Positions 18,495 to 57,559 of a stretch of 64,000 nt of DNA are shown here, one piece after another (position 1 is the first letter of the stretch; the number at the start of each line of letters is the position of its first letter). The notes below the pieces were generated by a model. The model searched no databases. It had not been told where the DNA came from and saw nothing but the letters and a program-made list of their open reading frames with translations. Source of the stretch: Paenibacillus sp. JNUCC-31 (lineage in GTDB: Bacteria > Bacillota > Bacilli > Paenibacillales > Paenibacillaceae); contig NZ_CP062165.1 in assembly GCF_014844075.1 (NCBI RefSeq), forward strand, positions 5,890,001 to 5,954,000, written 5' to 3'. The position numbers and the translations under genes were made by a program.

Positions 18495-18585
18495 AGAAAA
18501 AGTTTGATTTTATAATCAAATATAAGGAGGGTAGGATCAGGGAAACAGTTTGCATAAAATGAATCGGGAGAGGTGTTCTAATCTG

Positions 18586-19545
18586 ATGTTTAAATCAAAA
18601 GTAAGGTTTGCATCCTTTGTTATGGCTTGTACAATGGTTCTGTCTGTTATTGGAATAGTATATCAGCCAGTTGCGAAGGTATCTGCTGCAGACGCCTCGG
18701 GAACGACAGCGAGTATTGCTGATATCTTGAAAAATCAGCGTGCTGACGGAGGATGGAAGAAAGATTATAAGGAAACAAGCGGCGAGTGGGCAAAATCCAC
18801 GATTGATAACAAAGCTACATACTCAGAAATCAGAAGATTAGCAAAGGAATTTAAGAAGACTAATGACCCGCGGTATTCGGCTGCTGCCATCAAAGGAATC
18901 AACTTTCTACTAAACATGCAATATTCCAATGGCGGATGGCCGCAAGTATACCAGAGCTCAGGTTATCACAAGCACATCACCTTCAACGATGATGCCATGA
19001 TTAATGTCATGTACATGCTGGATGAAGTAGGTGCACGCAAAGGTGACTTCTCATTCATCGACAGCTCTCTTGCGGATCGCAGTAAAAAATCAGTTGCCAA
19101 AGGAGTAGACGCTATTCTGAATACACAGGTTGTCGCTAATGGCAAACTGACTGCATGGGGACAGCAACATGATTCCAGTTCCCTTAAACCTGCAGGAGCA
19201 AGAATTTACGAAGTGCCTTCTCTCAGTGCTGGAGAGAGCAGTACGATTGTGAAGTTTTTGAAAACAAGACCGTCAAACTCAAAAATTACAGCTTCAATCG
19301 AAGCGGCAGAAACCTGGTTCAACAAAGTGAAAATTACAGGGTACAAATATGTCAGAGAAAACGGGGATAGTAAACTCGTTGCTGATTCAGGTGCAGCGCC
19401 CATTTGGGCTCGTTTTTACGAAATTGGAACAGATAGACCGATCTTCGTAGGACGTGATGGGGTTGTGAAATACAAGCTTAGCGAAATCGATAAGGAAAGA
19501 AGAGGCGGATATGCTTGGTACGGTAACTGGCCTTCCAAGATATAG
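18586..19545 (+). CDS. Secreted pectate lyase, family PL10
   Basis: This is a 319-aa secreted lyase that cleaves polygalacturonate by beta-elimination, leaving unsaturated ends. A signal peptide (FASFVMACTMVLSVIGIVYQPVAKVSAADA) is followed by the PL10 alpha-toroid: ILKNQRADGGWKKDY, NKATYSEIRRLAK, INFLLNMQYSNGGWPQVY, FNDDAMINVMYMLDEV, and near the C-terminus APIWARFYEIGTDRPIF. There is no binding module or surface anchor. The start is uncertain: ATG 18586 gives the shortest signal peptide, 12 bp after GGGAGAGG; ATG 18559 and TTG 18550 are possible. The neighbouring locus adds other plant-glycan enzymes, and the gene has its own promoter and terminator. Confidence 0.92.
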   Translation: MFKSKVRFASFVMACTMVLSVIGIVYQPVAKVSAADASGTTASIADILKNQRADGGWKKDYKETSGEWAKSTIDNKATYSEIRRLAKEFKKTNDPRYSAAAIKGINFLLNMQYSNGGWPQVYQSSGYHKHITFNDDAMINVMYMLDEVGARKGDFSFIDSSLADRSKKSVAKGVDAILNTQVVANGKLTAWGQQHDSSSLKPAGARIYEVPSLSAGESSTIVKFLKTRPSNSKITASIEAAETWFNKVKITGYKYVRENGDSKLVADSGAAPIWARFYEIGTDRPIFVGRDGVVKYKLSEIDKERRGGYAWYGNWPSKI

Positions 19546-19627
19546 TTCTTTCACGCTTTTCATCAATTTCAATCAGAATCATAAAATAAACAATAACAAT
19601 AATTTGACTCATACTTAATATCCAAAC

Positions 19628-19677
19628 AAAACCAAGGGTAATACAGTGCTTGTTAACTGTGTTGGCCTTGGTTTTTT
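19628..19677 (+). terminator. Rho-independent terminator after pectate lyase
   Basis: AAAACCAAGG pairs with CCTTGGTTTT across a 28-nt loop that is itself partly foldable; a T run follows. Confidence 0.75.
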
Positions 19678-19739
19678 GTTTTACATGAAATGATGGATGA
19701 ATACAGCTTTAAATATAGAATGAAAAAATTTTTTTTTTG

Positions 19740-19811: not shown

Positions 19812-19895
<84 letters not shown>

Positions 19896-19910
19896 TCATA
19901 TGTAAGGTGA

Positions 19911-20129: not shown

Positions 20130-20171
20130 ACCATGATTTGAATGACCAAATTCAGAGGGGGTAGGGATAAT

Positions 20172-23100
20172 TTGAAACGAATCGGAAAAAGGATGGCAAT
20201 GTGTTTTATGGTATTCGTGATTGCGGCAGTGCAGTTCGGGATGATGGGGACGAGAGGTAATGTGGCACAAGCAGCAGATAAAAGTCTCGCCCAAAAGCCG
20301 TATATGGGCTGGAGCAGCTACAGCATGCAGGTGTATGACGGGGCGGGTAACTGGACATCGGCCGAGAGCATTAAGAAGCAATCAGATGCCATGCGTGAGA
20401 AGCTGCAGGCCCATGGCTATGAATACATTAATATTGATGCTGGCTGGAACGGGGACGAGGATGAATATGGCCGTCCTATTCCGAGTACTGTTCTTTATCC
20501 GAACGGATTTCAGGAGGTCATTGATTATGTCCATAATAACGGGCAGAAGATCGGGATCTATCTGATCCCGGGATTATCAATCACCGCCTATAACAAAAAT
20601 CTTGAGGTTTATGGGACGGGTGGAGCATGTCGTATGCAGGATATCGCGGTAAAGCCGCTCGTTGTTATGGATGCTTGGGATTCGTACACGTACAAAATCG
20701 ATTTTACGAACCCATGCGCACAGAAGTATGTGGATTCCATTGCCGATCTTCTGGGCGAGTGGGGCATTAACTTTGTCAAATTCGACAGTGTAACTCCGGG
20801 ATCGGGAATCAATAACTTGAGTCGGGATGCACGCGGTGATGTGGAGGCGTGGTCCAAAGCCCTGGACAGAAATAACATCTGGTTTGAGCTTTCCTGGGCG
20901 CTCGACCATAATTACGTGGATTTCTGGAAAAAGTATGCGAACGGTTGGAGAATCGACTGGGATGTTGAAGCCTACGACAGCAGTAAGGGCTTAACGGAAT
21001 GGTCGAGCATTTCACGTTTATTCCCCATCGCTGCCATCTGGTGGCGCGATGCAGGTCCAGGGGGTTGGAACGACTTTGATTCCCTGAATGTCGGGAATGG
21101 CTCGATGGATGGTCTGACCAGGGACGAGCGGAAGACCGCTACCACGTTCTGGGCAATCTCTTCAGCACCGCTTTATTCAGGTAATGATCTGACCAGGTTG
21201 GACAGCTATGGACTGGAGCTGCTTACGAATGATGAAGTCATTGCGGTCAATCAGGCCGGACGTCCAGCCCATCCGGTTTCCATGGACACCAAACAGCAGG
21301 TATGGTATGCCAATAACGGAGATGGTACGTACAGCGTAGCTCTGTTCAATCTGGGCAACCGGAGTGCAGAGGTGAAAGTGAAATGGAGCGATCTTGGCCT
21401 CGAAGGTCCGGCTTTGGTCCGAGATCTTTGGAGCCATTCCGAATTGGGAACTTTTAATACGGAATTTAGTGGCGGCGTGTTGGAACCCCATGCTTCCCGA
21501 ATGCTTAAAGTAACTGCCGTGAGCGGCACATCGGCCGTTAATGATGATGACACGGGCATGCGTTATAGTGGGGATTGGAAGCGTAACGGGGGCAAGGAGC
21601 AAATCGATGGCAGACAGGATCTAAGCATCGCCATTACGGATTCCTCGACCACAGACTCTGCGAATACGCAGCAAGGAGTTGACTTGGAAGCAGAAGTGGA
21701 CCCAATCACGAATGTAGAAAATGCTGCAAATGCGGTTTCAATGGATGCTGCTGCCGTTACCGATGTGGTTTACATTAATGATGATGACAGCCATATTCAA
21801 TACACGGGTTCATGGAGTCCAAATACCGGCAGAAGTTTCGGGGATTACAAAGGAGATGTACATTTTACTGAAACCGACGGCGATTATTTTGAATATACCT
21901 TTACTGGAACAGGCATTGACCTGCTGACGGAGAAGGATCAAGGACTGGGAGACATGATTGTTACACTCGACAATGGAACGCCTGAAACGGTAAACGCTTA
22001 TACCAGTGGTGAACGAGAAGTCCAACAGGTGCTGTATCGTGCTGCCGAACTGGATAGTGGTTCGCATACCTTGAAGGTGGTCAAAAAATCGGGCCAATAT
22101 ATGCTGCTGGATGCACTTAGAGTAACAACGGAAATTCCCACAGGAGGGCAGAACAGCACGATTAGTCCGGCTTCTGTTGACTTTGACAAGGCCACAGAAC
22201 AACAGAAGGATATTGCTGTCACGCTGTCATTGAATGGAAATACACTGATCAGTATTGAAAATGATGGGGTGCAGCTTAATGAAGACGACTATACGGTGGT
22301 CGATGACAAACTGAACATCAAGAAAGAATATCTCACCCAACTGCCTATAGGGGCAAATGACTTGACCGTCAATTTCAGCGCTGGTGATCCGCAGACTCTT
22401 AGAGTTAAGGTCAATGATACAACAGGCATTCGTTATGTACTGATCAATAACGACGACCCGGCAATGAAATACAATGGCTCATGGTCCCGCAGCACTGGCA
22501 GAGGAATGGGCGACTATAAGGATGATGTACAATATACCGAGACAAATGGTGATTCCTTTGAGTATATCTTCCGAGGTACAGGGATCCAGTTGTTCACGGA
22601 GGTAGACCAGTCACAAGGGGATATGGATATCTATGTGGACGGTCAGTTCAAGGAAACGGTCAGTGCTTATCGCAACGGACGGTTGGCACAGCAGAATCTG
22701 TACAGCATCTCGGGTCTGCCGGATGGGCAGCATACGCTGAAGGCCGTCAAGAAATCAGGTAGATTCATGCTACTTGATATGCTTAAGGTTGAGCTTCCGA
22801 ATATGATTAATCCGGTGAATGCGAGCTTTGACAAATCAACTTCCGCTCAGGCTGATATTGATGTCACGCTGCTGAAACAGGTGGAAAGCTTCAAGGGTAT
22901 TACCAACGGCTCTAATGAATTGATTCGGGGCACTGATTATACAGTTAATGGAGATCACGTTACACTGAGCAAAACGTATCTTGCTGCCCAGCCCGTTGGA
23001 ACGTTGAATCTCAGTTTTTCCTTCGGTGGTGATTACCTCAATGACGTACATTCGGCGACGGCGAATGGAGATTTCTTCGAATACACCTTCAAAGGGACCG

Positions 23101-24113
23101 GTATAAGCTTGATTACACCTACGGGACCGGAGCAGGGAGAAGTGGATATCTATGTCGATGGACAGCTGAAACAAACCGTGAATGCATACAGTCCGAGCCG
23201 GTTAATGATGCAGGAGATTTACAGCATCTCAGGACTGTCAAAAGGTCAGCATACACTCAAAGCTGTGAAGAAATCCGGTGATCTTATGCTGGCCGATCAA
23301 CTGAAATTTACTGTCCCTACTGGAATCGGAAACGGTGAACCAACGAATCCGTCGAATCCGTCGAATCCAGGTGGGCCATCCAATCCAGGCGGACCATCGA
23401 ATTCAGGCGGACCATCGACTCCAGTCGTGCAGCCTTCAGACACTTCTGTGCCAGCGCCAACTCCTGAATCCGGAACAACTGACGGGACAACAGGAACAGA
23501 GGGTGGTCAAGATATTCTGTACAAGGCGTATATTCAAGGGTATCCGGGCGGTTTGTTCAAGCCAGATAACAAACTCACCCGTGCGGAGATGGCAACCATA
23601 CTGGCACTGGTATCTGCGAAAGAAGTCAAGGGATCTGCTGTTGCATTCAGTGACGTTAAATCTGAATTTTGGGGAGCAGACGCCATTGCTAAGGTAAGCA
23701 AGATGGGGCTGATGAGTGGCTACGAGGATGGTACGTTTAAGCCAAATCAGCCCTTGACTCGTGCGGAGATGGCCACTCTTGTGGCCCTTCTGGGTCCGGC
23801 TTCCGAGCCTTTAGGTGACGGTTTCTCAGATATCAGCAGTCACTGGGCCAAAGAAGCTATTTTGAAAGCGCAAAGTGCAGGCATCCTGAAAGGCTACAGG
23901 GATGGAACCTTTAGACCGAATGCTTTACTGACAAGAGCAGAAGCAGTCGTTGCCATCAACCGAGTTTTAGGGAGAACGCCGCTCACTGACGTTACACACC
24001 CACAGTGGAAAGATGTTCCTTCCACGCATTGGGCCTTCGGTGATATCGAAGGGGCTTCGGTGGATCAGGTCGCAAAGTCCCTGATAGATGGGGGAGACCA
24101 GAAGAATAAATGA
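20172..24113 (+). CDS. SLH-anchored GH27-type glycoside hydrolase with carbohydrate-binding and X2-like modules
   Basis: A surface enzyme of about 1313 aa. After a signal peptide (MCFMVFVIAAVQFGMMG) comes a GH27 barrel (residues 35-440) opening with KPYMGWSSYS; the predicted nucleophile is Asp205 in VKFDS and the acid/base is near Asp264 in RIDWDVEAYD. It is probably an alpha-galactosidase or beta-L-arabinopyranosidase. Next are alternating units of a lectin-like module (531-652, 753-876) and an X2-like Ig module (664-749, 883-951). The third lectin-like module (about 952-1046) lacks its first 40 or so residues. A Pro/Asn/Gly/Ser linker and three SLH repeats (from 1114) tie it to the wall. 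I start at TTG 20172 after GAGGGGG and AGGG; ATG 20142 precedes those sites. The promoter has paired TGTAC repeats and a cre-like box. Confidence 0.9.
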   Translation: MKRIGKRMAMCFMVFVIAAVQFGMMGTRGNVAQAADKSLAQKPYMGWSSYSMQVYDGAGNWTSAESIKKQSDAMREKLQAHGYEYINIDAGWNGDEDEYGRPIPSTVLYPNGFQEVIDYVHNNGQKIGIYLIPGLSITAYNKNLEVYGTGGACRMQDIAVKPLVVMDAWDSYTYKIDFTNPCAQKYVDSIADLLGEWGINFVKFDSVTPGSGINNLSRDARGDVEAWSKALDRNNIWFELSWALDHNYVDFWKKYANGWRIDWDVEAYDSSKGLTEWSSISRLFPIAAIWWRDAGPGGWNDFDSLNVGNGSMDGLTRDERKTATTFWAISSAPLYSGNDLTRLDSYGLELLTNDEVIAVNQAGRPAHPVSMDTKQQVWYANNGDGTYSVALFNLGNRSAEVKVKWSDLGLEGPALVRDLWSHSELGTFNTEFSGGVLEPHASRMLKVTAVSGTSAVNDDDTGMRYSGDWKRNGGKEQIDGRQDLSIAITDSSTTDSANTQQGVDLEAEVDPITNVENAANAVSMDAAAVTDVVYINDDDSHIQYTGSWSPNTGRSFGDYKGDVHFTETDGDYFEYTFTGTGIDLLTEKDQGLGDMIVTLDNGTPETVNAYTSGEREVQQVLYRAAELDSGSHTLKVVKKSGQYMLLDALRVTTEIPTGGQNSTISPASVDFDKATEQQKDIAVTLSLNGNTLISIENDGVQLNEDDYTVVDDKLNIKKEYLTQLPIGANDLTVNFSAGDPQTLRVKVNDTTGIRYVLINNDDPAMKYNGSWSRSTGRGMGDYKDDVQYTETNGDSFEYIFRGTGIQLFTEVDQSQGDMDIYVDGQFKETVSAYRNGRLAQQNLYSISGLPDGQHTLKAVKKSGRFMLLDMLKVELPNMINPVNASFDKSTSAQADIDVTLLKQVESFKGITNGSNELIRGTDYTVNGDHVTLSKTYLAAQPVGTLNLSFSFGGDYLNDVHSATANGDFFEYTFKGTGISLITPTGPEQGEVDIYVDGQLKQTVNAYSPSRLMMQEIYSISGLSKGQHTLKAVKKSGDLMLADQLKFTVPTGIGNGEPTNPSNPSNPGGPSNPGGPSNSGGPSTPVVQPSDTSVPAPTPESGTTDGTTGTEGGQDILYKAYIQGYPGGLFKPDNKLTRAEMATILALVSAKEVKGSAVAFSDVKSEFWGADAIAKVSKMGLMSGYEDGTFKPNQPLTRAEMATLVALLGPASEPLGDGFSDISSHWAKEAILKAQSAGILKGYRDGTFRPNALLTRAEAVVAINRVLGRTPLTDVTHPQWKDVPSTHWAFGDIEGASVDQVAKSLIDGGDQKNK

Positions 24114-24332: not shown

Positions 24333-24361
24333 TTGACTAAGCCGACAAATATTATTATCTT
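24333..24361 (+). promoter_or_regulatory. SigA promoter for the membrane AraC regulator
   Basis: TTGACT (24333-24338) and TATCTT (24356-24361) have a 17-bp spacer, predicting transcription from about 24368. A weaker cre-like sequence, TGATAACGCTACCA (24362-24375, two mismatches), covers the start of transcription. The remainder of 24152-24332 shows nothing else. Confidence 0.6.
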
Positions 24362-24405
24362 TGATAACGCTACCAATACCTCAAGGAGGGGGAGGAGGGT
24401 TACCC

Positions 24406-26694
24406 ATTAAATATTCCAGTGTTTTTCGTAAATTTTTAATTTCCTACGTGATCATTTTGGTGATACCCAGCATTGGCGGTTATATGTCTTATCTGACTTC
24501 AATTTCCGTGACACAATCCATCTCCATTGAGAACAGCGTTACCCAACTGCAGAAAAGCCAGGAAATATTGGAGCGCCGTATGGCGGAAGTGGAAGGTTTC
24601 ACCCGACAGCTTGCGGTTAATCAGGAATTGAACGTTCTGATGAATGAAAGGGACAACGAAACAAACGTATATGGGATATGGAGAACGATGGAGAATGTGT
24701 TGACCTTTGGACAGACAAATGATTTTCTGCAAAATTATTATATCTATCTTGCCAATTACAATCTGATTCTCACCCCGGGCTCTTCTTACAGACCAAATCA
24801 TTATTACGATAATTTCCGTTATAACGATCTTTCGTTGGAAAAATGGATGAAGGATGTGTTGGAGAAGACCCACCGGAGTGAAATTAAACCGCTCAGCTCC
24901 TATGTCAGCAGGGGAAAGCAGACTACCGTAATCACATATATGCAGTCATTGCCTCTGGACAGCTTCAATGATTCATCACCCGCTGTCGCGGTTGTCATTA
25001 TTGACGAGAAAATCATTCTCAGCCTGCTGTCCAGCCTGAATGAGCGATACGGTGGTTGGGTTCATATCAGTGATGCAGAGGGCAATACCATTGCGCTGCA
25101 AGGGAGCACCGAGCCCGAGATGGTGAAAATGGCCTCTGACTCTCATTTTGACCCAAGTAGAGTTAGCCAGTTCTATGGGGATGATCTCGTGATCACTACA
25201 AGATCCGATAAGAATGGATGGGTTTACCAGGCGGGCATTCCCCGTCATGTCCTGATGGAGAATGCAAACAGGATCAAGGGGATGACGCTGCTGATTACCG
25301 GCGGCACACTGCTCATCGGACTTATTGTTGGACTCGTGCTGGCCTATCGCAACAGCGCCCCAATCAATCGACTGCTAAGCGTCATGAAAGAACAGTTCGG
25401 GAAGGATGAATCGGCTCCCAAAAATGAATTTGATTTTTTGAGTGGAAATATCGCTGATATGCTTACCAAGAACAAGCTGCTCGAATCCGAATTGAATCGC
25501 CAGCTCCCACTGGTCAGGGATGCCTTCTTGAAGCGATTGATTTCCGGCGAATTCAAATCGCGGGATGAGATTCTTTCCGCCGCCGAACAGGCTGATATTC
25601 ATTTGTATCAAGGCAAGGGATATGCAGGAATTGTCCAGATTAAGGGTTATGCCAGTATGGATAGCGTTGAGATCCTAAATGAACTGAGTGCCTCCCGACT
25701 GTTGTTGAAGCAGGCTGTGGCTGAACTTGGTGGAGATGTCCTGATGACGGACATGGGCTCAGATAAAGTGGTCATTCTGTTCTTTTCCAGAGAGAACGAA
25801 TCCGGAATGGATCGTGAAAAGGAAGAGATCACGCACACCATGGAAAATCTGACACAATATGTGTTCAATGAATACAGAATCACCATCCAGTCAGGATTCG
25901 GAAATCTCTTCACATCGGTAACAGAGGTGAGTATTTCCTTTGATCAGGCGAATCAGGCGCTGGAGTATGCAGTCTACATGAACAAAAAAGGAATGATGTG
26001 GAACAAGGAGGCCCAAACCGAAAATACAACCTATTATTACCCGCTGGATTCGGAGCAGCGACTGATTGGAACGATCCGTGCAGGAGAACGTGAAGAGGCT
26101 AAACGGATTGTCGATGCAATCATTGTGCAGAACGTGGAGCAAAGGGAATTGTCCATGGAAATGAAGCATCAACTTGTCGGAGAAATGAAGGGGACCTTTC
26201 TCAAGCTGCTGGATCAAAAGGCATTTACGGAATACGCCTCCATCGAGAATGTAAAACGGCGAGTCATTGATATTGGTTCTTCCGAGCCGCTTGAATCGAT
26301 AAAGGCCGAGTTTTATGAAATCATGGAAGAACTGTGCGCACTGATTACGAACAAAAAGAAAGATGCCCATATTCAAATCATTAAACAGATCAAGGAATAC
26401 ACTGCACGGATGTATTCAGATACAGAGCTGACCTTGTATCGGGTGGCAGAGCATGTGGAGCGGCCCGAAAAATACATTTCCCAATTATTCAAAGAGTTTA
26501 CGGGTGTCAATTTCTCTGACCACCTCATCAAAGTCCGGATGGATCAAGCAGTGATTCTGCTAAAAGAGAGTAATTATACGGTGGACGAGATTGCGTCACG
26601 GGTAGGTTACAATAGTTCTCACTCTTTCAGGAGAGCCTTCAAACGATTGAATGGCGTTTCGCCCAGTGTGTACAGACAATCGGTTGACGATTAA
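24406..26694 (+). CDS. Membrane-spanning AraC family regulator (YesS-like)
   Basis: A 762-aa regulator with TM1 near residues 10-30 (FLISYVIILVIPSIGGYM), an extracellular sensor region, TM2 near residues 300-320 (MTLLITGGTLLIGLIVGLVLAY), a cytoplasmic linker, and a C-terminal AraC DNA-binding domain with two helix-turn-helix units (LYRVAEHVERPEKYISQLFKEF and VDEIASRVGYNSSHSFRRAFKR). It probably senses a glycan outside the cell and controls the adjacent transporter and hydrolases. The only codon at normal distance from the strong GGAGGAGGG (24391-24399) is ATT at 24406; no ATG, GTG or TTG fits. TTG 24361 lies in the predicted -10. An AUU start is therefore proposed. Confidence 0.88.
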   Translation: MKYSSVFRKFLISYVIILVIPSIGGYMSYLTSISVTQSISIENSVTQLQKSQEILERRMAEVEGFTRQLAVNQELNVLMNERDNETNVYGIWRTMENVLTFGQTNDFLQNYYIYLANYNLILTPGSSYRPNHYYDNFRYNDLSLEKWMKDVLEKTHRSEIKPLSSYVSRGKQTTVITYMQSLPLDSFNDSSPAVAVVIIDEKIILSLLSSLNERYGGWVHISDAEGNTIALQGSTEPEMVKMASDSHFDPSRVSQFYGDDLVITTRSDKNGWVYQAGIPRHVLMENANRIKGMTLLITGGTLLIGLIVGLVLAYRNSAPINRLLSVMKEQFGKDESAPKNEFDFLSGNIADMLTKNKLLESELNRQLPLVRDAFLKRLISGEFKSRDEILSAAEQADIHLYQGKGYAGIVQIKGYASMDSVEILNELSASRLLLKQAVAELGGDVLMTDMGSDKVVILFFSRENESGMDREKEEITHTMENLTQYVFNEYRITIQSGFGNLFTSVTEVSISFDQANQALEYAVYMNKKGMMWNKEAQTENTTYYYPLDSEQRLIGTIRAGEREEAKRIVDAIIVQNVEQRELSMEMKHQLVGEMKGTFLKLLDQKAFTEYASIENVKRRVIDIGSSEPLESIKAEFYEIMEELCALITNKKKDAHIQIIKQIKEYTARMYSDTELTLYRVAEHVERPEKYISQLFKEFTGVNFSDHLIKVRMDQAVILLKESNYTVDEIASRVGYNSSHSFRRAFKRLNGVSPSVYRQSVDD

Positions 26695-26958: not shown

Positions 26959-27906
26959 TTGAATCACAAGACATCAACACAGCTGAAGGGACCTGGTTTT
27001 CTGACCAATGCCCGCAAAAGAATGATGAAGCACTGGCAGTTACATCTGCTGGTGATTCCGCCCTTGCTATTTTTTCTCATCTTCAAGTATTATCCGATGA
27101 TCAATGCGGTCCTTGCCTTTAAGGACTATAACGTCATCAAGGGAATATGGGGAAGTGATTGGGTTGGTTTTCAAAACTTTCGTCTGTTCTTTGAGAACCC
27201 ATTATTCTGGACCCTGGTGAAGAACACCATTCTGCTTAGCGGTTATTTAGTGTTGGCCGGATTTCCGATTCCGATTGTGCTCGCACTCATGATTAACGAG
27301 GTACGCGGAGCCAAGTTTAAGAAGTTCGTGCAGCTCGTATCTTTTGCACCCTATTTCATCTCAACGGTCGTAATGGTGTCCATGATTATGCTGTTCCTGG
27401 CACCACGGCTTGGATTTGTGAACATCGCCATGAATTTCATTGGGCTGGATTCCGTGAATTTTCTGGGTGAGCCGGGTATGTTCCGTTCGATCTACGTCTG
27501 GTCCGACATTTGGCAGACTGCGGGCTACAGTGCGGTTATTTATTTGGCAGCACTTGCCGGAATCGACCCCACATTGTACGAAGCGGCCAAAGTCGATGGA
27601 GCCTCGCGTTTTCAAAAAATTCGTCACGTGGATCTGCCAGGGCTGGTGCCAACCATTGTCATTATTTTGATCCTGAATGTCGGAAATGTCATGGCGATTG
27701 GCTTTGAGAAAGTCTACCTGTTACAGAATCCACTCAATCTGGCTAATTCTGAAATCATTGCTACTTATGTCTACCGAGTGGGCCTGTTGAATGCCAACTA
27801 TAGTTTTGCAACTGCGGTAGGGCTGTTCAACTCACTGATCAATCTGGTCTTACTGGTTACGGTGAATGGTTTGGCGAAGAGAGTTACGAAGAATAGCATT
27901 TGGTAA
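26959..27906 (+). CDS. Sugar ABC transporter permease, LplB type
   Basis: A 315-aa inner-membrane subunit of a carbohydrate importer with about six membrane helices. The cytoplasmic EAA loop that docks the ATPase is EAAKVDGASRFQKIRHVDLPGL. LplB-type features are LLVIPPLLFFLIFKYYPM near the N-terminus and NVGNVMAIGFEKVYLLQNPL. TTG 26959 lies about 8 bp after AGAAGG. It is the first gene of the operon with the second permease and binding lipoprotein; no ATPase is encoded, so a shared MsmX-like ATPase elsewhere is presumed. Confidence 0.93.
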   Translation: MNHKTSTQLKGPGFLTNARKRMMKHWQLHLLVIPPLLFFLIFKYYPMINAVLAFKDYNVIKGIWGSDWVGFQNFRLFFENPLFWTLVKNTILLSGYLVLAGFPIPIVLALMINEVRGAKFKKFVQLVSFAPYFISTVVMVSMIMLFLAPRLGFVNIAMNFIGLDSVNFLGEPGMFRSIYVWSDIWQTAGYSAVIYLAALAGIDPTLYEAAKVDGASRFQKIRHVDLPGLVPTIVIILILNVGNVMAIGFEKVYLLQNPLNLANSEIIATYVYRVGLLNANYSFATAVGLFNSLINLVLLVTVNGLAKRVTKNSIW

Positions 27907-27921
27907 GAAAGGAGTTCACCT

Positions 27922-30561: not shown

Positions 30562-30577
30562 TGAACAGGGATATCGA

Positions 30578-30616
30578 AATCAGGTGCCTATGATGTACCG
30601 GCACCTGATTTTCCTT
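30578..30616 (+). terminator. Intra-operon hairpin, probable partial terminator
   Basis: AATCAGGTGCC (30578-30588) and GGCACCTGATT (30600-30610) form a perfect 11-bp stem followed by TTCCTTG, a weak tail. The loop contains ATGATG (30590-30595), in frame with the downstream gene. It may set a high transporter to hydrolase ratio. Confidence 0.6.
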
Positions 30617-30664
30617 GTATTCAGGCAAAAGGGAAGTTTACATACCAAGAAGGGTGGGATTAAC

Positions 30665-32392: not shown

Positions 32393-32422
32393 CAAATGAG
32401 AAAATTTTGAGGGAGAGTGCAC

Positions 32423-37092: not shown

Positions 37093-37117
37093 GAATATGT
37101 GGGATGGAGGGCATGAT

Positions 37118-39448: not shown

Positions 39449-39481
39449 CGATCTATACTTGAAAATAACTTTCATTTATAT

Positions 39482-39515: not shown

Positions 39516-39548
39516 AGAGACATAAAGAGACAAAGGGAGGGGACGTTG

Positions 39549-46025: not shown

Positions 46026-46162
46026 TACCTTGAAATGACAGATGATTTCCCCTACGGATTGTAAGAATGCGATATGGCTAATGTAACATCTGCTTCCTAC
46101 AATAATAAGTATGTTCACAACACACAGCACGAGGGTAACAGGAACTCGAAAGGATGATAAAC

Positions 46163-48293: not shown

Positions 48294-48342
48294 AAAAGGA
48301 GTGCTTTGTAGGCCGATAACGGCTGCATCGCACTCCTTTTTT
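48294..48342. terminator. Bidirectional terminator
   Basis: AAAAGGAGTGC (48294-48304) and GCACTCCTTTT (48330-48340) form a perfect 11-bp stem between convergent genes, with T runs available on both strands. Confidence 0.88.
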
Positions 48343-50098: not shown

Positions 50099-50322
50099 CA
50101 GGAAGCCCTCTCTTGACTGAATATTCGTTGCACAGTTCATCATAGCAGAGTGAATATGGAAATCCAATCCTCTCTTTTACGCAGAAACATCTTTAAAAAG
50201 CGGTATCTTTCGGAGAATTCGACTATGGCGGGCAATCAGCGTCAAATTTATGATGAATAGGAGAGAAGTTGAATCCAGATATGGCCTACCATGCTGCTGT
50301 ATAGAAAAAGGGAGGGTATTTA

Positions 50323-51279
50323 ATGCATAAGGTAAGCGCTATCAAAACAGTCAGGAGCAATAATCTGATAAGCAGACTAAAAGAGCAAAAATGGTTATTC
50401 GTGCTTATGCTTCCTGCCTTCATTGCGACATTGCTATTTTCCTATGGTCCGATGTTTGGACTATATATGGCGTTTACGAATTATCAGCCGGGTGGGGGAT
50501 CATTTTTTTACCAGTTCTTCCATGCTGAATTTGTAGGTTTCCAGTGGTTTGAGTATTTCTTTACTACAGGGGATTTCTATCGGGTTATGCGAAATACGCT
50601 TGCCACAAGTTTGCTGACATTGTTCTTTGGATTTCCTGCGCCGATCATTCTCGCGCTTGTACTAAATGAAGCAAGACAGGGATTTTTCAAACGTTTTGTA
50701 CAGACGGTTTCCTATCTGCCGCATTTTATCTCATGGGTTATCGCAGCCAACATTGTAATTACGCTGCTGGCTTCCGATGGAATGCTTAACAATATTCTGG
50801 TTATGCTGGGCATGGTCAAGGAACCTGTCGCATTTTTGCAGAACGGGCCTCTATTCTGGTGGATTATCGCCCTGTCGAACATGTGGAAAGAAATGGGTTT
50901 TAGCGCCATAATGTATCTCGCTGCAATCGCCTCCATTAATCCGGAGCTCTACGAAGCGGCCAGGGTGGACGGAGCCAGCCGATTTAGGCAAATGTGGCAT
51001 ATTACGCTGCCATCCATGCGTCCTACCATTGTCATATTGGCTATTCTCGCGGTCGGAGGCATTTTGAATGCGGGATTTGAACAGCAATACCTGCTGCAAA
51101 ATAATACCGTACTTGAATACTCCGAAGTAATTGATATTTATGCCTACAAATACGGACTGCAGAACAGCATGTTCTCTTACGGGGCTGCCGTGGGAATGTT
51201 CAAATCCGTTGTTGCCTTTATTCTTGTCCTCATCGTGAACCGGATTTCCAGAAAAGTGAACGACCAGGCGTTGTTCTAA
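50323..51279 (+). CDS. Second sugar ABC permease, LplB type
   Basis: A 318-aa permease with six predicted helices and the EAA loop EAARVDGASRFRQMWHITLP. N-terminal LFVLMLPAFIATLLFSYGPMFGLYMAF and C-terminal VNRISRKVNDQALF are typical. ATG follows GGGAGGG. A cre-like sequence, GGTAAGCGCTATCA (50331-50344, one mismatch), lies inside the first codons, where a repressor would act as a roadblock. It starts the second transporter operon, divergent from the kinase, again without an ATPase gene. Confidence 0.93.
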   Translation: MHKVSAIKTVRSNNLISRLKEQKWLFVLMLPAFIATLLFSYGPMFGLYMAFTNYQPGGGSFFYQFFHAEFVGFQWFEYFFTTGDFYRVMRNTLATSLLTLFFGFPAPIILALVLNEARQGFFKRFVQTVSYLPHFISWVIAANIVITLLASDGMLNNILVMLGMVKEPVAFLQNGPLFWWIIALSNMWKEMGFSAIMYLAAIASINPELYEAARVDGASRFRQMWHITLPSMRPTIVILAILAVGGILNAGFEQQYLLQNNTVLEYSEVIDIYAYKYGLQNSMFSYGAAVGMFKSVVAFILVLIVNRISRKVNDQALF

Positions 51280-51307
51280 TTAGAAGAGACAGAGGGGAGC
51301 GCTTGTG

Positions 51308-52198
51308 ATGATTCTGAACAGATTCGGGGATCGTATTTTCAAAATTATTGTGTATTTCATTCTTATTCTCGTATTACTGGTTACATTTCTTCCGTTTTGG
51401 AATATACTCGTTCTTTCATTGAACAGCGCGGAGGATACAGTACGAGGCGGCGTCTACCTGTGGCCCAGAGACCTGACCCTGGACAGCTATCAGCAGATTT
51501 TGAAGGATAGCGAGATTTTGAACGGGCTGTGGGTAACCGTCAAGCGGACTCTGATTGGTGCACCGCTGTCGGTTCTGGTCATTACGATGCTTGCGTATCC
51601 GCTAAGTCGGCGGAATCTGATTGGACGCAAAGGATGGAACCTGTACTTTATCTTTACCATGTATTTCAGTGGTGGACTCATTCCATTCTACATGGTGCTT
51701 AAGGCACTGAACATGATCGATACATTCTCGGTGTTCATTTTGCCAAGTTTGATGAATGTCTTCTATATGATTATTGTCCGTACCTTTATGGAGCAGCTGC
51801 CCCATGAGATTGAAGAATCGGCGAGGGTGGATGGGGCTAACGATCTGACGATTTTCTTCCGAATTGTGATGCCGCTGACAACACCTGTGCTTGCAACAGT
51901 GGGCCTCTTTCAAGCCATTGGACATTGGAATGCCTGGTTTGATTCCTATGCGTTCACCTACAGCTCGGACCTGAAAACTCTTCAAGCCGTGCTTGTCAAA
52001 ATATTGAATCAATTTCAGACCGGCGGCATGATTTCACAAACGCAAATGCTGGCCAACTCGGCCAAGCGGAATGCCGTTTCAAGCGATACCATTCGAATGG
52101 CTGCTACCATGGTAGCGACCTTACCGATCGTTATGGTGTACCCGTTCCTGCAAAAATACTTTGTTAAAGGCATGACTTTGGGAGCGGTGAAGAGTTAA
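51308..52198 (+). CDS. Second sugar ABC permease, YtcP/LplC type
   Basis: A 296-aa permease with about six membrane helices and the EAA-type loop EESARVDGANDLTIFFRIVMPL. Typical motifs are YPLSRRNLIGRK, FTMYFSGGLIPFYMVLK and FQAIGHWNAWFDSYAF. ATG 51308 is 6-7 bp after GAGGGGAGC; GTG 51305 is the immediate alternative. It follows the first permease by 28 bp and forms the channel with it. Confidence 0.92.
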   Translation: MILNRFGDRIFKIIVYFILILVLLVTFLPFWNILVLSLNSAEDTVRGGVYLWPRDLTLDSYQQILKDSEILNGLWVTVKRTLIGAPLSVLVITMLAYPLSRRNLIGRKGWNLYFIFTMYFSGGLIPFYMVLKALNMIDTFSVFILPSLMNVFYMIIVRTFMEQLPHEIEESARVDGANDLTIFFRIVMPLTTPVLATVGLFQAIGHWNAWFDSYAFTYSSDLKTLQAVLVKILNQFQTGGMISQTQMLANSAKRNAVSSDTIRMAATMVATLPIVMVYPFLQKYFVKGMTLGAVKS

Positions 52199-52324
52199 TC
52201 TGTTTCATGATCCGGTTGCAGGGAAGGCTTGTCCGGTGGCCTCTCCTGAAAGGGGGTGGGCAAAGATCGTTTTGGAAATGCTCAATCTAGCACTGCAGGA
52301 ATTTATTCATTGGGAGGAATTAGG

Positions 52325-53935
52325 GTGTCAATGACAAAGACAAAAAAATGGATGACCATGGGGATTACGGCTGCATTAGTCGTTGGTTTGCTGGCGGGCT
52401 GCTCCTCCAATGATGGGGAGAACAATACAGCAGGTAAAGACGGGGAACAAGGGCCGATTACGCTGACCTGGTTTGATGGCAATACCAAAGGAGAACCTTT
52501 TACCGATGCGGTTGCCCAGGAAATTACCAAAAAGACGGGCATAGAGATTTCCATCCAGCAGCCAACGGGTAATCCAACAGAAAAACTGAGCCTGATGCTG
52601 GCGAGTGGTGACTATCCCGATGTGGTGGTCATGAGCCGGGGAGATGCTTCCCTTGATAAGTACATTTCAAGCGGCGCATTCATTCCACTGGATGAGTTGA
52701 TTGAGAAATATGGTTCTGATTTGAAAGAAATGTACGGCGAAACTTTGACCAAAACACGTTATACAGACAGCAAGAACTACTATCTGGCAAACTGGTACGG
52801 TCTCGACAGTGATCCGGTCTTCGGTATGCTGATGAGGCAGAGCCTGCTGGAAGAGTTTCTTCCAGACAAGGCAGATGGTTCAAAGCCACTCACAACGGAC
52901 GAGTTTGAGACACTCCTGAAAAATTTCAAAGAAAAATACAACACGATTGATGGCAAAGAGTCCATTCCGATGACGATGAACGGTGAGAACATGGGCGCGA
53001 ATCTGGGGACATTTAAAGGCATGTGGGGCTTAAAAACGTATTATGACAACAATGGACGTCTGCAATATGATGTCAAGGACCCCAAATATCGTGAAATGCT
53101 GTTATACATGAATCGATTATATAGAGAAGGTTTGATTGAGAAGGAATTTGCGATTAGTAAAACGCAAACATGGATTCAAAAGCTGACGACTGGCGCGGTA
53201 TTCGCTACCCCAGGTGCATATTGGGACCCAGGTAACGGTAATGCGGCCCTGAAGAAGGATGGCGGAGAGAAGAATCAGTTATTTGCATATAAAGTTGTTG
53301 CTCCAGGTGTAGATCCGGCTCAAACGACATTTGGTCCAAGAAGTTCGCTTGGATGGGATGCGATCGCTATTACCAAAAATAACAAGCACCCGGAAGAGAC
53401 AATGAAGCTCTTTAATTATCTGGCGAGTGATGAAGGACAGCATTTGCTGCTGTGGGGTAAGGAAGGCGAACAGTATACCATGGTAGATGGCAAGCGCCAA
53501 CCGGACCCTGCGTTCCTGCAAAGCTTCAAGGATAACTGGGATGACACGGTGAAGAAAAGCGGCGTTCGCAAATGGTTATGGTTTATCAAAAATGGTCTGG
53601 ACCCGAATGGACAGCCGTATGATATGGCGGTCAAATTCCAGCGCAGTGAAGTGGATGAACTGGCCATTAAGAGTCTTGGCGATTCCGTATGGGATACAGC
53701 GCAGTATGATAACCTGAATCCGGATGGGGGAACACCTCAAGCACTGACGGCCCAGAAGGTGAAGGATATTATGGATCAGAGCATTACGAGAGCTATTATC
53801 GCTCCAAGTGAAGCTGAGGCCAATTCCGTATTCGACAAGATGCTGGAGGATATGAAAAAAGCTGGCGATGAGAAAGTGGAGGATATTATCAACGAGAAAT
53901 ATGCTCAGCGTATGGAGCTGTGGTCTTCCAAATAA
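52325..53935 (+). CDS. Second solute-binding lipoprotein
   Basis: A 536-aa binding lipoprotein with signal TMGITAALVVGLLAGCSSN (lipobox LLAGC). The mature part has the LplA/YtcQ-like layout (LMLASGDYPDVVVMSRGD; FIPLDELIEKYGSDLKEM; FNYLASDEGQHLLLWG). It differs strongly from the first binding protein, so the two importers probably take different oligosaccharides. GTG 52325 is 7 bp after GGGAGG; ATG 52331 is an alternative. A hairpin terminates the operon. Confidence 0.92.
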   Translation: MSMTKTKKWMTMGITAALVVGLLAGCSSNDGENNTAGKDGEQGPITLTWFDGNTKGEPFTDAVAQEITKKTGIEISIQQPTGNPTEKLSLMLASGDYPDVVVMSRGDASLDKYISSGAFIPLDELIEKYGSDLKEMYGETLTKTRYTDSKNYYLANWYGLDSDPVFGMLMRQSLLEEFLPDKADGSKPLTTDEFETLLKNFKEKYNTIDGKESIPMTMNGENMGANLGTFKGMWGLKTYYDNNGRLQYDVKDPKYREMLLYMNRLYREGLIEKEFAISKTQTWIQKLTTGAVFATPGAYWDPGNGNAALKKDGGEKNQLFAYKVVAPGVDPAQTTFGPRSSLGWDAIAITKNNKHPEETMKLFNYLASDEGQHLLLWGKEGEQYTMVDGKRQPDPAFLQSFKDNWDDTVKKSGVRKWLWFIKNGLDPNGQPYDMAVKFQRSEVDELAIKSLGDSVWDTAQYDNLNPDGGTPQALTAQKVKDIMDQSITRAIIAPSEAEANSVFDKMLEDMKKAGDEKVEDIINEKYAQRMELWSSK

Positions 53936-54024: not shown

Positions 54025-56463
54025 CTACACCTGCGCTTTAACCATGGTGATGATATCTCCTGCTACTGTCGAGATTTTTCCAACCTGACCAGATAACATA
54101 CATTGTTCACCGGAAGGGAGGGTGCACAATGCCCCTTCTGTCCATGGGATATAGAAGGATAGTGAGGTACCAGCTTCACTCTCAATCTCGATCCAATCCG
54201 TCTCCCCATCTACAAAAGCCGCACTTACAAGGAAGCCTCCCACAGCACGGAGCGTATGGAATTCTGCCTTCTGTTCGTTCGGCCAGTTGGGGAAGAAGCG
54301 CAGGTTACCATTATAACTTTGAAGAAGGCATTCATTGATAACGGCAGGCAGGGAAAAATTTTCGAACCAGATGCCCATACGGGACATGAAATCGAAGTTC
54401 TCCGTGTCAGCATAGCGACCACCGCTCATTAGGACCCGATCTGTGCAAGTGCCGTTTGGTAGCAGACAATACTGAATCTGGCGCTTGAACCGTTCCAGAT
54501 CCAGCAAACCAAGCCGGGCTCCTGCAAGATGATAGAACACGAGTTCATTCCCACCTTCGTTTCGATGGTTAAGGTAGGCGTTCACTGCGGTCCGGTATTC
54601 TTCTTCGGGTGAATGAAGCCCATGGTCTTCGCCTGGAAATATCGTCGTGATCGGAATCGGTACGTTATAGATTACATCGGGGTTCTCGCCCTCCACCGAC
54701 ACAAAGACTGGACCGTTCCGGGATTCGGCTATGGGATAAGAAGGAAAATGGTTCAAGATCTGCTCTACATTGTCCAGCAGCTTCTGCTCGGTTTCTACCA
54801 TCTCAAGAATATCACAGGCCTGTGTGAAAGCATTGAACAGAAATCGCGTCAGTGTCAGGTCGATCAGGCTGTCTTTGTTTTTGGCAAAGCCGGGTGCAAT
54901 CTCATATAACTCCGGCACAACCGTCGGAAAAATGTGATAATTGTCGTCTCCCCAGTGTTCACCCCGTGCTTCCGGACGTTTCATGTAATCGACCATGAAC
55001 AGTACAGCTTCTTTCATGGGTTGAAATGCACGATTACGCAGAAACGTCTCGTCCATGGAATAGAGATAGTGCCACCATAGACTTTGCACCGTCCAAGGCG
55101 TCTCACAGATTTCCCATCCCCAGTGCGGGACAGGGTAGGGCATTATGGACATTTCAACAGGATAGGCGGAGTGTGGAAAATAAGCTCCACTCAGTCCGTA
55201 ATAATCTCGCGCCCACGTCCGGCTGACAGGAAGTACATGATCAACCATATCCACGTAAGGAAGATGTTTATCGAGATGGTTGCTGGAGAATGCAACCCAG
55301 AACGGCTGCTGCGTGTTGTAATTCATGTGGTAATCCCCATGCCAGTCTGCACCGATGGTACGGTAGCTCCAATTGGCGAACAGGCCAGGACAGGTAACGC
55401 CTGCTCTCACGGCACAATTAAAAAAATACAGATTGTGATACCAGATACGCTCCAGGAACTCATCTTCCAGTGCGACGGAGGAGAGGCTCCAATAATCACG
55501 CCACATTGCCTTCGACTCTTCCTTAGCTTGATTAAAGTAAGATAGATCTGGCGGGTGGGCCTCATCATCGAGATCGCTATAAAAGCCTTCCCACAGCTCT
55601 GCGCATGCCAAAAAGCCGTGTTCATCTGTTCCCGGAGAATCGAAATTTACTTCTGAATTCTTCGTAAGGAGGGGGTGTTCTTCGTTCTTACCTATACCAG
55701 ATACGCTTACAGCAAGCCGGAAAGCTTTATCTTTCACCTGAGTTATATAAGGTACAGACGGGTGTTCCACATGCGGCAAAATTTGTGTAAATGACTGTCC
55801 GCCCGTCACTGTGTTGGTCATAACTTCTGCGTGTGGGAATTCAGGTGGTGTTTCGGGATCTGGAATTAGCTTGATCTCCTCGAATAAGGGAACCAACGCA
55901 CCTGTTGCAGCATCGCTTGCTTTCATCCAGACTCGTTCGTGTGATCCTTCCACAAATAGCTCGAATATGGCAGGTTTGCCATCCATCAGGAAATCAATCG
56001 TGCAAAGGCCATTTGCAATATCAATGGTATGGCCAATAACTTCGGCCTTTCGCCGATCATATCGCAGCAGCAGTGATCCGCAGGGCATGGGCTTTGGATA
56101 AGCTTTACTGTAATTTTGGCCGGCCAGCTCACAATATTGTTTGTACCATGGATGATCCGTTAATTGCACCAAATCAGCTGGCAGAGCAGCCAATCTTTCA
56201 TAGACCTCTTGGAAAGTCAGTAGCTCGTCTTTGTGATCTTCAGCGAGACGAATATCCCAGACATTGTTATGTCCAAAATGGAGCATTACGGCATCCGGGC
56301 GGGTTGTTACGACAATACCCAGTCCTCCGTTGCCTAACAGTGCGCCTTCAAAAAAGTCCGGCGCAGGACCAGTGAAGGAAACGGGATGCTGCTTGGCACG
56401 TTCATAGCCTCTGTTCTTATTTATCTCGTGTCTTCTCTTCATTTGCTTATCATTCTTCTGCAT
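54025..56463 (-). CDS. Divergent GH95-like (alpha/alpha)6 glycosidase
   Basis: A large protein (812 aa) with the GH95-type layout: an N-terminal sandwich with EGALLGNGGLGIVV, a helical barrel, and a C-terminal end with INECLLQSYNGNLRFFPNWP that parallels LLQS...LELLPALP in the true GH95 enzymes. The Asn pair is retained in YHMNYNTQQPFW, but the catalytic-base motif IDGNF reads WFENF. It may therefore use another residue, act on another sugar, or not be a hydrolase. No signal peptide. ATG 56463 follows GAGGAGG by 7 bp. It is divergent from the soluble AraC regulator that probably controls it. Confidence 0.72.
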   Translation of the reverse strand: MQKNDKQMKRRHEINKNRGYERAKQHPVSFTGPAPDFFEGALLGNGGLGIVVTTRPDAVMLHFGHNNVWDIRLAEDHKDELLTFQEVYERLAALPADLVQLTDHPWYKQYCELAGQNYSKAYPKPMPCGSLLLRYDRRKAEVIGHTIDIANGLCTIDFLMDGKPAIFELFVEGSHERVWMKASDAATGALVPLFEEIKLIPDPETPPEFPHAEVMTNTVTGGQSFTQILPHVEHPSVPYITQVKDKAFRLAVSVSGIGKNEEHPLLTKNSEVNFDSPGTDEHGFLACAELWEGFYSDLDDEAHPPDLSYFNQAKEESKAMWRDYWSLSSVALEDEFLERIWYHNLYFFNCAVRAGVTCPGLFANWSYRTIGADWHGDYHMNYNTQQPFWVAFSSNHLDKHLPYVDMVDHVLPVSRTWARDYYGLSGAYFPHSAYPVEMSIMPYPVPHWGWEICETPWTVQSLWWHYLYSMDETFLRNRAFQPMKEAVLFMVDYMKRPEARGEHWGDDNYHIFPTVVPELYEIAPGFAKNKDSLIDLTLTRFLFNAFTQACDILEMVETEQKLLDNVEQILNHFPSYPIAESRNGPVFVSVEGENPDVIYNVPIPITTIFPGEDHGLHSPEEEYRTAVNAYLNHRNEGGNELVFYHLAGARLGLLDLERFKRQIQYCLLPNGTCTDRVLMSGGRYADTENFDFMSRMGIWFENFSLPAVINECLLQSYNGNLRFFPNWPNEQKAEFHTLRAVGGFLVSAAFVDGETDWIEIESEAGTSLSFYIPWTEGALCTLPSGEQCMLSGQVGKISTVAGDIITMVKAQV

Positions 56464-56491
56464 AAATGTCCTCCTCGTGAAGTATGCGATG

Positions 56492-56610
56492 TACAGTTAT
56501 TACTGTATTGGAACAGCAGTTTGCTGTATTTAGCAAGACGTCCACGATTTGCACGATAGTCAGATCAATTGGTGCTCTGCTGAGATGTACCTCTAGTCCC
56601 GAATTGTACC
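56492..56610 (+). promoter_or_regulatory. Divergent control region with TGTACCT pair and inverted repeat
   Basis: TGTACCT occurs at 56585 and 56604 (19 bp apart, same strand), matching the repeats before the GH27 and transporter genes. TACAGT-TATT-ACTGTA (56492-56507) is an inverted repeat nearer the GH95-like gene, and CTGTATT recurs at 56503 and 56524. These are candidate sites for the adjacent AraC regulator. Confidence 0.5.
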
Positions 56611-56671
56611 TTTCGACAATGGAGATGAATGGGTAACATCGAGAGAAACGGAGTCGGAAAGGAACCTTCCT

Positions 56672-57559
56672 ATGAATTTTGCTTCCTTGCATCCCTATGT
56701 ATATCTGGCGACACGATACCCATTTGTAAAAGGACAGTCGAGTTCTCAGCGAATTTGCTATACCAGCTCTATTTACTTGATCAGCGAAGGGTACGGGATA
56801 TTGACTACAAATGGTCAGAGCAGCAGGCTGGGTCCGGGTTCGCTGGTCTATATCGCAGCAGGGCAACTGCATGAGTGGGTAGCTGATCTGAAGAACCCAA
56901 TGGTACACCTATGTTGTTATTTCGATTGGCACTATGTGGAGAGGGGAACGGATTTTAATACAGTTTGTCCGATTTGTTATCCCCCGCAGGTGCTGCAGCA
57001 GGCATTTGTGGGCCCTTCTTTTCCTTACGCGCTTAGGGAAATTTCAAAGGTGGAGTCATTGCGGATTTGGCAGGATCTCTTCCGGGATTTTTATAAGAGT
57101 GGGGTGTTCATCAATGAACAGACGTTTATGCGCAGTTTGACGATTCAACGTAATTTCCAGACATTCATCGACTATTTTTTGAACTGTTGCATGCTGAGGG
57201 AGGATTTCATTCCAGATCAGCGAATAAGCCAAATGTTGCACATGATTGAGCAGGATTTGTTGCATGAAGCCCCCAAACCGCTGAAGGTCTATTACCAAAA
57301 GCTGAATATGAGCCGTGGTCATTTTTTTGAACTATTTAGAAAATCTACCGGATATTCTCCCATCCAATATATGAACCGATTACGCATAGGACTGGCTAAG
57401 GACGATCTGCTGCACACGACGCTAAGTATCACACAAATAGCGGAAAAATATCACTTTAGCTCCGTTCATTACTTCTCCAGGCTTTTTCATCGACTAACGG
57501 GTCAAACCCCGCGTCAATATCGCTTGTCTGCTTGTGCTAGTTCAATCCTGCAATCTTAA
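56672..57559 (+). CDS. Soluble AraC family transcriptional regulator
   Basis: A 295-aa regulator with a cupin-like sugar-sensing N-domain (LISEGYGILTTNGQSSRLGPGSLVYIAAGQLHEW) and a C-terminal AraC DNA-binding domain (LNMSRGHFFELFRKSTGYSPIQYM; ITQIAEKYHFSSVHYFSRLFHRLTGQTPRQY). It has no membrane segments. ATG 56672 is 9 bp after AAAGGA. The divergent neighbour encodes a GH95-like enzyme. TGTACCT repeats just upstream suggest autoregulation and control of other units in the locus that share the motif. Confidence 0.9.
   Translation: MNFASLHPYVYLATRYPFVKGQSSSQRICYTSSIYLISEGYGILTTNGQSSRLGPGSLVYIAAGQLHEWVADLKNPMVHLCCYFDWHYVERGTDFNTVCPICYPPQVLQQAFVGPSFPYALREISKVESLRIWQDLFRDFYKSGVFINEQTFMRSLTIQRNFQTFIDYFLNCCMLREDFIPDQRISQMLHMIEQDLLHEAPKPLKVYYQKLNMSRGHFFELFRKSTGYSPIQYMNRLRIGLAKDDLLHTTLSITQIAEKYHFSSVHYFSRLFHRLTGQTPRQYRLSACASSILQS

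Follow-up and report, generated by a model that had tools for sequence, protein, structure and literature searches.

In the 64,000-nucleotide stretch of Paenibacillus sp. JNUCC-31 DNA analyzed here (contig NZ_CP062165.1, positions 5,890,001 to 5,954,000; hereafter the window), a glycan-utilization locus occupies positions 20142-53935. Its core consists of two related enzymes, GHDb and GHDa, a sensor kinase and response regulator, and a binding-protein-dependent importer (importer 2). Judged by their sequences, the two enzymes belong to one unclassified group of clan GH-D glycoside hydrolases (GH), which we call GHD. Our overall explanation, to which we assign a probability of about one half, is a Gram-positive system that cuts at the surface, imports and finishes inside, arranged as two modules at a tRNA-Leu site and likely directed at a fucosylated arabinogalactan-type glycan. 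Gene families, the conservation of catalytic residues, the recurrence of the cassette and the insertion site were observed and are described below.

As we infer the reaction specificities, the direction of flow, the sensing and the polymer, a branched polymer would first be attacked outside the cell by GHDb and a GH27 enzyme, both predicted to be anchored to the surface by SLH domains. Oligosaccharides would enter through two importers that depend on binding proteins and whose ATPase is presumably encoded elsewhere; inside, the predicted cytosolic enzymes GHDa, GH110, GH95a, GH95b and GH36 would strip off L-fucosyl and galacto-configured caps. Extracellular sugar would be sensed by two dCache systems, a sensor kinase paired with a response regulator and a regulator of the AraC type. 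As members of clan GH-D, the GHD enzymes themselves would work by retention on a residue of galacto configuration, alpha-D-galactopyranose and/or beta-L-arabinopyranose (beta-L-Arap).

The locus, its core and its insertion site

A Pfam scan covered 20 proteins between 18550 and 58540 of the window. The features are as follows, with solute-binding protein abbreviated to SBP and helix-turn-helix to HTH.

18550-19545, +, PL10 pectate lyase, secreted; chromosomal flank outside the locus (PF09492, 325.9 bits; TIGR02474)
19812-19895, +, tRNA-Leu(CAG), left edge of the insert (ARAGORN)
20142-24113, +, GH27 with CBM_X2, a CE2_N-like domain and three SLH; predicted secreted and surface-anchored (Pfam, hydrophobic N-terminus)
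24361-26694, +, AraC1, membrane regulator with dCache and AraC HTH (Pfam; dCache match below the Pfam cut-off)
26959-28821, +, importer 1 permeases perm1a (26959-27906) and perm1b (27922-28821) (BPD_transp_1)
28918-30561, +, SBP1, solute-binding lipoprotein of importer 1 (SBP_bac_1; LSGC lipobox-like N-terminus by our reading)
30512-32392, +, GH110, predicted cytosolic (GLAA-B domains)
32417-34801, +, GH95a, predicted cytosolic, T-x-N-x-N (598 bits)
34931-36988, +, GHDa, predicted cytosolic, unclassified clan GH-D group (Melibiase_C only, plus predicted fold)
37091-39448, +, GH95b, predicted cytosolic, H-x-D-x-N (495.7 bits)
39459-41081, +, response regulator with AraC HTH (Pfam)
41323-45987, +, GHDb, predicted secreted, with CBM35/6 modules, a GHD catalytic part (about residues 490-1139) and three SLH (Pfam, alignment)
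46154-48274, +, GH36 alpha-galactosidase, predicted cytosolic, canonical 'VVDDGW' (397.6 bits)
48341-50167, -, sensor histidine kinase, dCache-HAMP (Pfam)
50323-52198, +, importer 2 permeases perm2a (50323-51279) and perm2b (51305-52198) (Pfam)
52256-53935, +, SBP2, solute-binding lipoprotein of importer 2 (Pfam; LAGC lipobox-like N-terminus by our reading)
54025-56463, -, GH95c, distant GH95-like (110.9 bits)
56672-57559, +, AraC2 regulator (Pfam)
57587-58540, +, divergent polysaccharide deacetylase, right chromosomal flank (matched in 27 of the 39 genomes searched, its own included)

The original prediction, made from the sequence alone, had described one glycan-utilization locus spanning 18550..57559. 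That span is too wide. An NlpC gene was matched at 90% identity or more in 13 genomes, each of which has the deacetylase on the same contig; the locus lies between these flanks in four (G000, G001, G003 and G012) and is absent from between them in nine (G002, G008, G010, G011, G013, G016, G020, G022 and G023). All nine of the latter have the order NlpC, PL10, tRNA-Leu, deacetylase. The tRNA-Leu gene sits between PL10 and GH27 in the window, and the same gene stands at the edge in G001, G003, G012 and the nine congeners. No PL10 match was found anywhere in the genome of G001, although G001 carries the locus, nor between the flanks of G001, G003 and G012, which share locus and site; PL10 is also absent from this site in G021, whose NlpC gene is only 80% identical. 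Because the locus-free congeners keep PL10 followed by tRNA-Leu and the locus-bearing relatives lack it, PL10 is chromosomal backbone and not a member of the locus.

The search for the same gene order in relatives, which had been proposed as a check, returned the locus at the same site in G001, G003 and G012, without PL10, GH95c or AraC2. GH95c and AraC2 occur at this site in the window genome only, among the four loci. GH36 is additionally missing from the locus in G003 and G012, and GH110 was unmatched in G012. What stands of the earlier claim is that this is a glycan-utilization locus, with surface enzymes, lipoprotein-type binding proteins, permeases and cytosolic glycosidases, and that the region encodes two importers, each with its SBP and permeases, and four regulators (two AraC types, a response regulator and a sensor kinase). 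No ABC (ATP-binding cassette) ATPase was seen among the 20 scanned proteins.

Compartments were predicted from the hydropathy of the first 65 residues rather than by a signal-peptide predictor. N-terminal hydropathy is high in PL10, GH27, GHDb, both SBPs, the permeases, AraC1, the kinase and the flanking deacetylase, and low in GH110, GH95a, GH95b, GH95c, GHDa and GH36. Both GH27 and GHDb (1554 residues) have three SLH stretches. The shared locus is predicted to encode two surface glycosidases and five cytosolic ones, and, with compartments assigned in this way, surface enzymes, importer, cytosolic glycosidases and regulator stand together in the layout of Gram-positive polysaccharide utilization. 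The open reading frame (ORF) of GH110 begins within SBP1, overlapping it by 50 bases, and therefore the real GH110 start is probably further downstream.

The core was delimited by comparison across genomes. Scanning named genomes with the GHD alignment gave at least 559 confirmed stretches, the best of which were made into 79 loci with up to 10 kb on each side, so that presence counts in these loci are lower bounds. Five loci do not reach 20 kb in length; the genes of all 79 come from a simple ORF caller with best-match labels, and the query gene itself was missed in five of the 79. GHDa and GHDb occur together in 56 of the 79 best loci. The complete core (GHDb, kinase, regulator, both importer 2 permeases, SBP2 and GHDa) was labeled in 29, and 26 of these contain no GH95a, GH95b, GH95c, GH36, GH110, GH27 or PL10 within the stretch. 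GH95b was found in at least 24 of the 79, GH36 in at least 11, GH110 in at least nine and GH27 in at least one. The absence of PL10 from all 79 is uninformative, since PL10 lies further off in the window locus.

In a family-level sample, GHD was present in 62 of 196 genomes, and 59 of the 62 had two or more matches at 1e-50 (53 at 1e-140, by our count). The second match is only a distant one in the remaining six of the 59 (G045, G049, G060, G077, G094 and G224). A phylum-level sample yielded GHD in 3 of 398 genomes, all from the family of the window genome. Because both the GHD genes and the minimal cassette of sensor and importer (26 of the 79 best loci) recur so widely, the substrate of a widespread system would be learned from a single enzyme pair and a single binding protein. 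Outside the family, a Neobacillus niacini stretch (L080) carries GHDa, importer 2, two-component genes, GH36 and GH4 without GHDb, which in this other genus amounts to a cassette for import only. G024, from another family of the same order, has GHDa, GHDb, SBP2, the permeases, the regulator and the kinase.

We suggest that the locus would be made of two modules inserted at the tRNA-Leu site. In two genomes, G011 and G023, the match was confined to the segment running from GHDa through SBP2, at a different location, and GH27, AraC1 and importer 1 were unmatched within the 50 kb fetched. The part in G023 includes GH95a and pieces of GH110. These pieces (L028) are short and adjoin GH95a, as if the gene were decaying. 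Among the nine locus-free congeners, G008 has nothing in the slot past tRNA-Leu, six have a single, similar gene there, and the other two have that gene together with a further sugar cluster. Of the eight slot genes, the two that were scanned are GH30-like and carry CBM6, the GH30 match being below the Pfam cut-off. Since its contents vary in this way, from nothing through a GH30-like gene to whole sugar clusters, we regard the slot as a hotspot for sugar-utilization cassettes. We also considered an island formed by integrase-type insertion into the tRNA gene, which is unsupported: the tRNA 3' end turned up only once in the window.

The xylan/aldouronate system of Paenibacillus sp. JDR-2, in the portions of PMC4765114 that we draw on, is similar in having a large surface-anchored enzyme, oligosaccharide ABC import, cytosolic finishing enzymes and clustered regulators, and the JDR-2 genome also has a GH27/3CBMX2/3SLH protein. 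In contrast, the JDR-2 surface enzyme is a known endoxylanase with a known substrate, encoded away from its cluster (PMC4765114), whereas the surface GH27, of an Ala type described below, and the unclassified GHDb are encoded inside the window locus.

The GHD pair and the C6 pocket

Pfam confirmed most of the gene list given in the original prediction, namely PL10, GH27, GH110, two GH95, one weak GH95-like protein and one GH36. The exceptions are the two proteins called GH36-like, GHDa and GHDb, which are 41% identical across 670 residues. Their catalytic part is unmatched in the Pfam and NCBIfam libraries, and the only Pfam match in the catalytic region is Melibiase_C (the PF17801 C-terminal domain). 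The GH36 models PF02065, PF16875 and PF16874 gave no match to either protein at 1e-3, and the GH27 catalytic model PF16499 was likewise unmatched. In profile comparison, GHD matched the window GH27 (an alignment of two rows) with a probability of 98.9, versus 0.2, which is no match, for the window GH36 (an alignment of only four rows). GH27 domains also come first in the VIA-align rows for GHD, which leaves room for families beyond those rows. The predicted model of GHDa, the only one of the pair modeled, has a predicted local distance difference test score (pLDDT) of 90.1 and a predicted template modeling score (pTM) of 0.90; it shows a (beta/alpha)8 barrel of the GH27/GH36 type and matches enzymes of both families. 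Identity to the GH36 enzymes FpGalNase (9ayu) and TmGal36 (1zy9) is 14-16%, and the second Asp of their DD pair is missing in GHD.

Residues were compared in two sets, whose types are defined by length and best match: 73 short GHDa-type rows (72 relatives plus the window protein) and 48 long GHDb-type cores (47 relatives plus the window protein). No row of either set (73/73 and 48/48) departs from Lys428, Asp430 or Asp496, and the GHDb Asp pair aligns with the Asp residues of 'KIDF' and 'GPDT' in TmGal36. By this alignment, both enzymes have two putative catalytic Asp residues at the nucleophile and acid/base positions of clan GH-D. The C6-pocket position is Ala (A326) in GHDa and Ser in GHDb. 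Among the best 120 of 994 GHDa homologues it is Ala in 72 and Ser in 45 (117 together), Leu in two and unreadable in one, and it is Ser in all 48 GHDb-type cores. Beside the short and long pair, several genomes have a third and more distant GHD branch, whose matches are 29-34% identical and lie in frames roughly 1030-1100 or 1430-1450 amino acids long.

The GH27 of the locus shows a similar change. It has the domains of its family (PF16499, 93.4 bits; PF17801, 52.4 bits) and its best solved-structure match is 4NX0 (E 3.9e-44). However, 'IDAGW' replaces 'IDDxW', which places Ala (A100 in ORF numbering) at the C6-pocket position in the alignment to 1UAS and Abp. Out of 766 homologues, the best 120 all have the same Ala, 116 of them recognized by pattern and four by reading the printed motif. 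The clade of Ala-type GH27 proteins is large; its members are named mostly from Paenibacillus and Cohnella, and many also have CBM_X2 and SLH. As described in the sections of PMC5853685 and PMC4598101 available to us, the C6 pocket of characterized GH27 enzymes takes its shape from the residue that follows the conserved Asp ('NIDD'): this residue is Asp in alpha-galactosidases, Ile or Glu in beta-L-arabinopyranosidases with Tyr in plant APSE, and Cys in some dual-activity enzymes. The window GH27 therefore has neither the second Asp of 1UAS 'NIDD' nor one of the bulky residues (Ile, Glu or Tyr). It resembles the beta-L-arabinopyranosidases GsAbp (4NX0), CpArap27 and SaArap27A in departing from Asp at the same position, and differs from them in having Ala instead of Ile or Glu. 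The 2015 survey in PMC4598101, in its accessible part, includes no natural enzyme with Ala there, and it reports that the I56A mutant of CpArap27 cleaved para-nitrophenyl (pNP) beta-L-Arap and pNP-alpha-galactoside about equally.

Among the GH27, GH36 and GHD enzymes of the locus, only GH36 keeps the canonical Asp pair. Database names for GHD proteins often read 'alpha-galactosidase', which is a label and not a test. Because Ala or Ser replaces the C6-pocket Asp, the sequences indicate that this is not a safe label for GHD or for the locus GH27, and we suggest that these enzymes may act on beta-L-Arap or on C6-substituted galactose. The claim that the enzyme families of the locus remove terminal alpha-galactose is doubtful for GH27, GHDa and GHDb; GH110 keeps its catalytic Asp motifs. 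It is of wider interest that GHD proteins carry the name alpha-galactosidase when the window pair matches no catalytic model and lacks the marker residue of alpha-galactosidases. With the same small-residue change in the GH27 clade, the locus offers a direct test of how clan GH-D enzymes choose between galactose, arabinopyranose and substituted galactose.

L-Fucose and the candidate polymers

L-fucose appears better supported as a component of the substrate than does the alpha-galactosidase label, because GH95a and GH95b, a fucosidase-like gene beside GH95b in three relatives' loci and a fucose isomerase encoded in the window genome all point to it. GH95a and GH95b have three GH95 Pfam domains and the acid Glu, as in AfcA, XacAfc95, BACOVA_03438 and BH0842. 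GH95a scores 1082 bits to 2RDY and keeps the N-x-N base pair, and its T-x-N-x-N motif is present in 11 of 11 relatives. GH95b differs from AfcA in having Asp at the position of the catalytic Asn421, an Asp also found in 8zbv, named an alpha-L-fucosidase; it may serve as an ordinary Asp general base, and H-x-D-x-N is kept in 24 of 27 relatives, the other three having no readable motif. GH95c matches the catalytic model weakly (110.9 bits) and PF21307 not at all; it keeps H-x-N-x-N, with 'WFEN' at the usual place of 'IDGN', and among 1704 relatives, 112 of the top 120 have both motifs. A protein of 739-742 amino acids is encoded immediately before GH95b in three of the 79 best loci (L039:13408-15633, L040:13404-15629 and L049:16001-18217). 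The one member scanned (the L040 copy, GHL6/GH42M) has the alpha-L-fucosidase 6tvk as its best solved match (E 3.6e-27); we read the protein as GH151-type, and it suggests a second, unrelated pointer to fucose.

The fucose half of the predicted removal of alpha-L-fucose or alpha-L-galactose is thereby strengthened, and the galactose half cannot rest on the Thr/His position. Thr in GH95 has been proposed as the mark of an L-galactosidase, of the BACOVA_03438 type (PMC4491172, in part), and GH95a has Thr. However, the part of PMC8245568 that we cite describes a fucose-specific GH95 enzyme with Thr in which T395H leaves the preference unchanged, and we make no L-galactose assignment.

An arabinogalactan-type glycan is our best guess for the polymer. 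Galacto-configured caps are supported by the sequences of GH110 and GH36 and by clan GH-D membership, and a CBM35 of GHDb matches a module of the galactan 1,3-beta-galactosidase 7byv (E 2.5e-11). Several points weigh against this explanation. By E-value, the best CBM35 match is another protein, 2wz8 (E 1.2e-12), and the known families of endo-enzymes for the arabinogalactan backbone were unmatched among the 20 scanned proteins. The canonical GH36 and GH110 argue for some true alpha-D-galactose. CpArap27 I56A was a poor catalyst with no detectable product from arabinogalactan, according to the sections of PMC4598101 cited, and the C6-pocket residue is not the sole determinant of GH27 specificity, according to those of PMC5853685. 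Finally, fucose isomerase is encoded by 54 of the 62 genomes with GHD and by 76 of the 134 without it (Fisher p 1.9e-5), a comparison that is uncorrected for ancestry and genome size and is weak support for fucose.

The main rival is a fungal fucogalactan, a polymer with an alpha-1,6-galactan backbone and alpha-1,2-L-fucose branches. Surface GHDb would cut the backbone internally or free short units, the small Ala or Ser admitting a 6-linked neighbor; GH95 would remove Fuc-alpha-1,2-Gal, and GHDa, GH36 and GH110 would finish inside. We consider this unlikely, at perhaps a minor share of the odds, as no structure displays an open cleft and our literature search found nothing tying such an enzyme to this polymer. 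More speculative still is the idea that GHD is a new clan GH-D family, a paired outside/inside toolkit mainly of Paenibacillaceae, whose surface copy is endo-acting on an alpha-linked galactan such as fungal fucogalactan, with the Ala or Ser shared with the GH27 clade admitting a 6-substituted sugar at the cleavage site. Residues equivalent to GHDa 468-472 and 536-540 are missing from over 80% of the 48 GHDb-type cores; by our reading of the predicted model, the gap at 536-540 follows a barrel strand and would hence lie on the catalytic face. No published description of GHD or of this locus was found by title or abstract in a search that left most subscription journals outside.

It is improbable that the GHD enzymes instead recognize a C6-modified galacto-sugar (alpha-D-galacturonic acid or 6-substituted galactose) through charged residues of the N-terminal domain, in a motif DND-x-W-x-R. 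Asp157, Asp159, Trp161 and Arg163 are indeed invariant in a 32-row alignment, and the residue at the C6 position is small. However, Lys160 is not conserved in GHDb-type copies, Thr replaces Arg163 in 1 of 48, and an N-terminal loop reaching the active site is a guess.

A host or mucin glycan with B-type epitopes, from which GH110 would remove Gal-alpha-1,3 and GH95 Fuc-alpha-1,2 with help from GH36, seems more doubtful again. The GH110 has the beta-helix and barrel domains of PdGH110B and 8yk3 and its catalytic Asp positions are conserved, the 'HDD' and 'ADF' motifs being common to 8yk3; the catalytic residues were taken from the portion of PMC7939477 cited and mapped by motif via 8yk3, with the mapping to PdGH110B being our own reading. 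GH110 also adjoins GH95a, with GH95b two genes further. However, it is predicted to be cytosolic, beside importer 1, unlike PdGH110B and 8yk3. Hexosaminidase, sialidase and sulfatase families were unmatched among the 20 scanned proteins, and the core cassette occurs without GH110, which only reached the lower bound of nine loci given above.

Least credible is a pectin-type polymer, a decorated rhamnogalacturonan or mucilage opened by PL10: PL10 does lie 596 bases upstream of GH27, and a cluster with one scanned GH88-like member is near GHD in three of the 79 best loci, but synteny rules out PL10 as the polymer-opening enzyme, the tRNA gene stands between it and GH27, and the argument for pectin fails because PL10 belongs to the flank.

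Elsewhere in the window, three proteins of about 350-360 amino acids (11149-12204, 14406-15464 and 59790-60872) have no Pfam match, and a cyclic di-AMP riboswitch (18047-18178, minus strand, 74.7 bits) lies immediately upstream of the NlpC/P60 gene.

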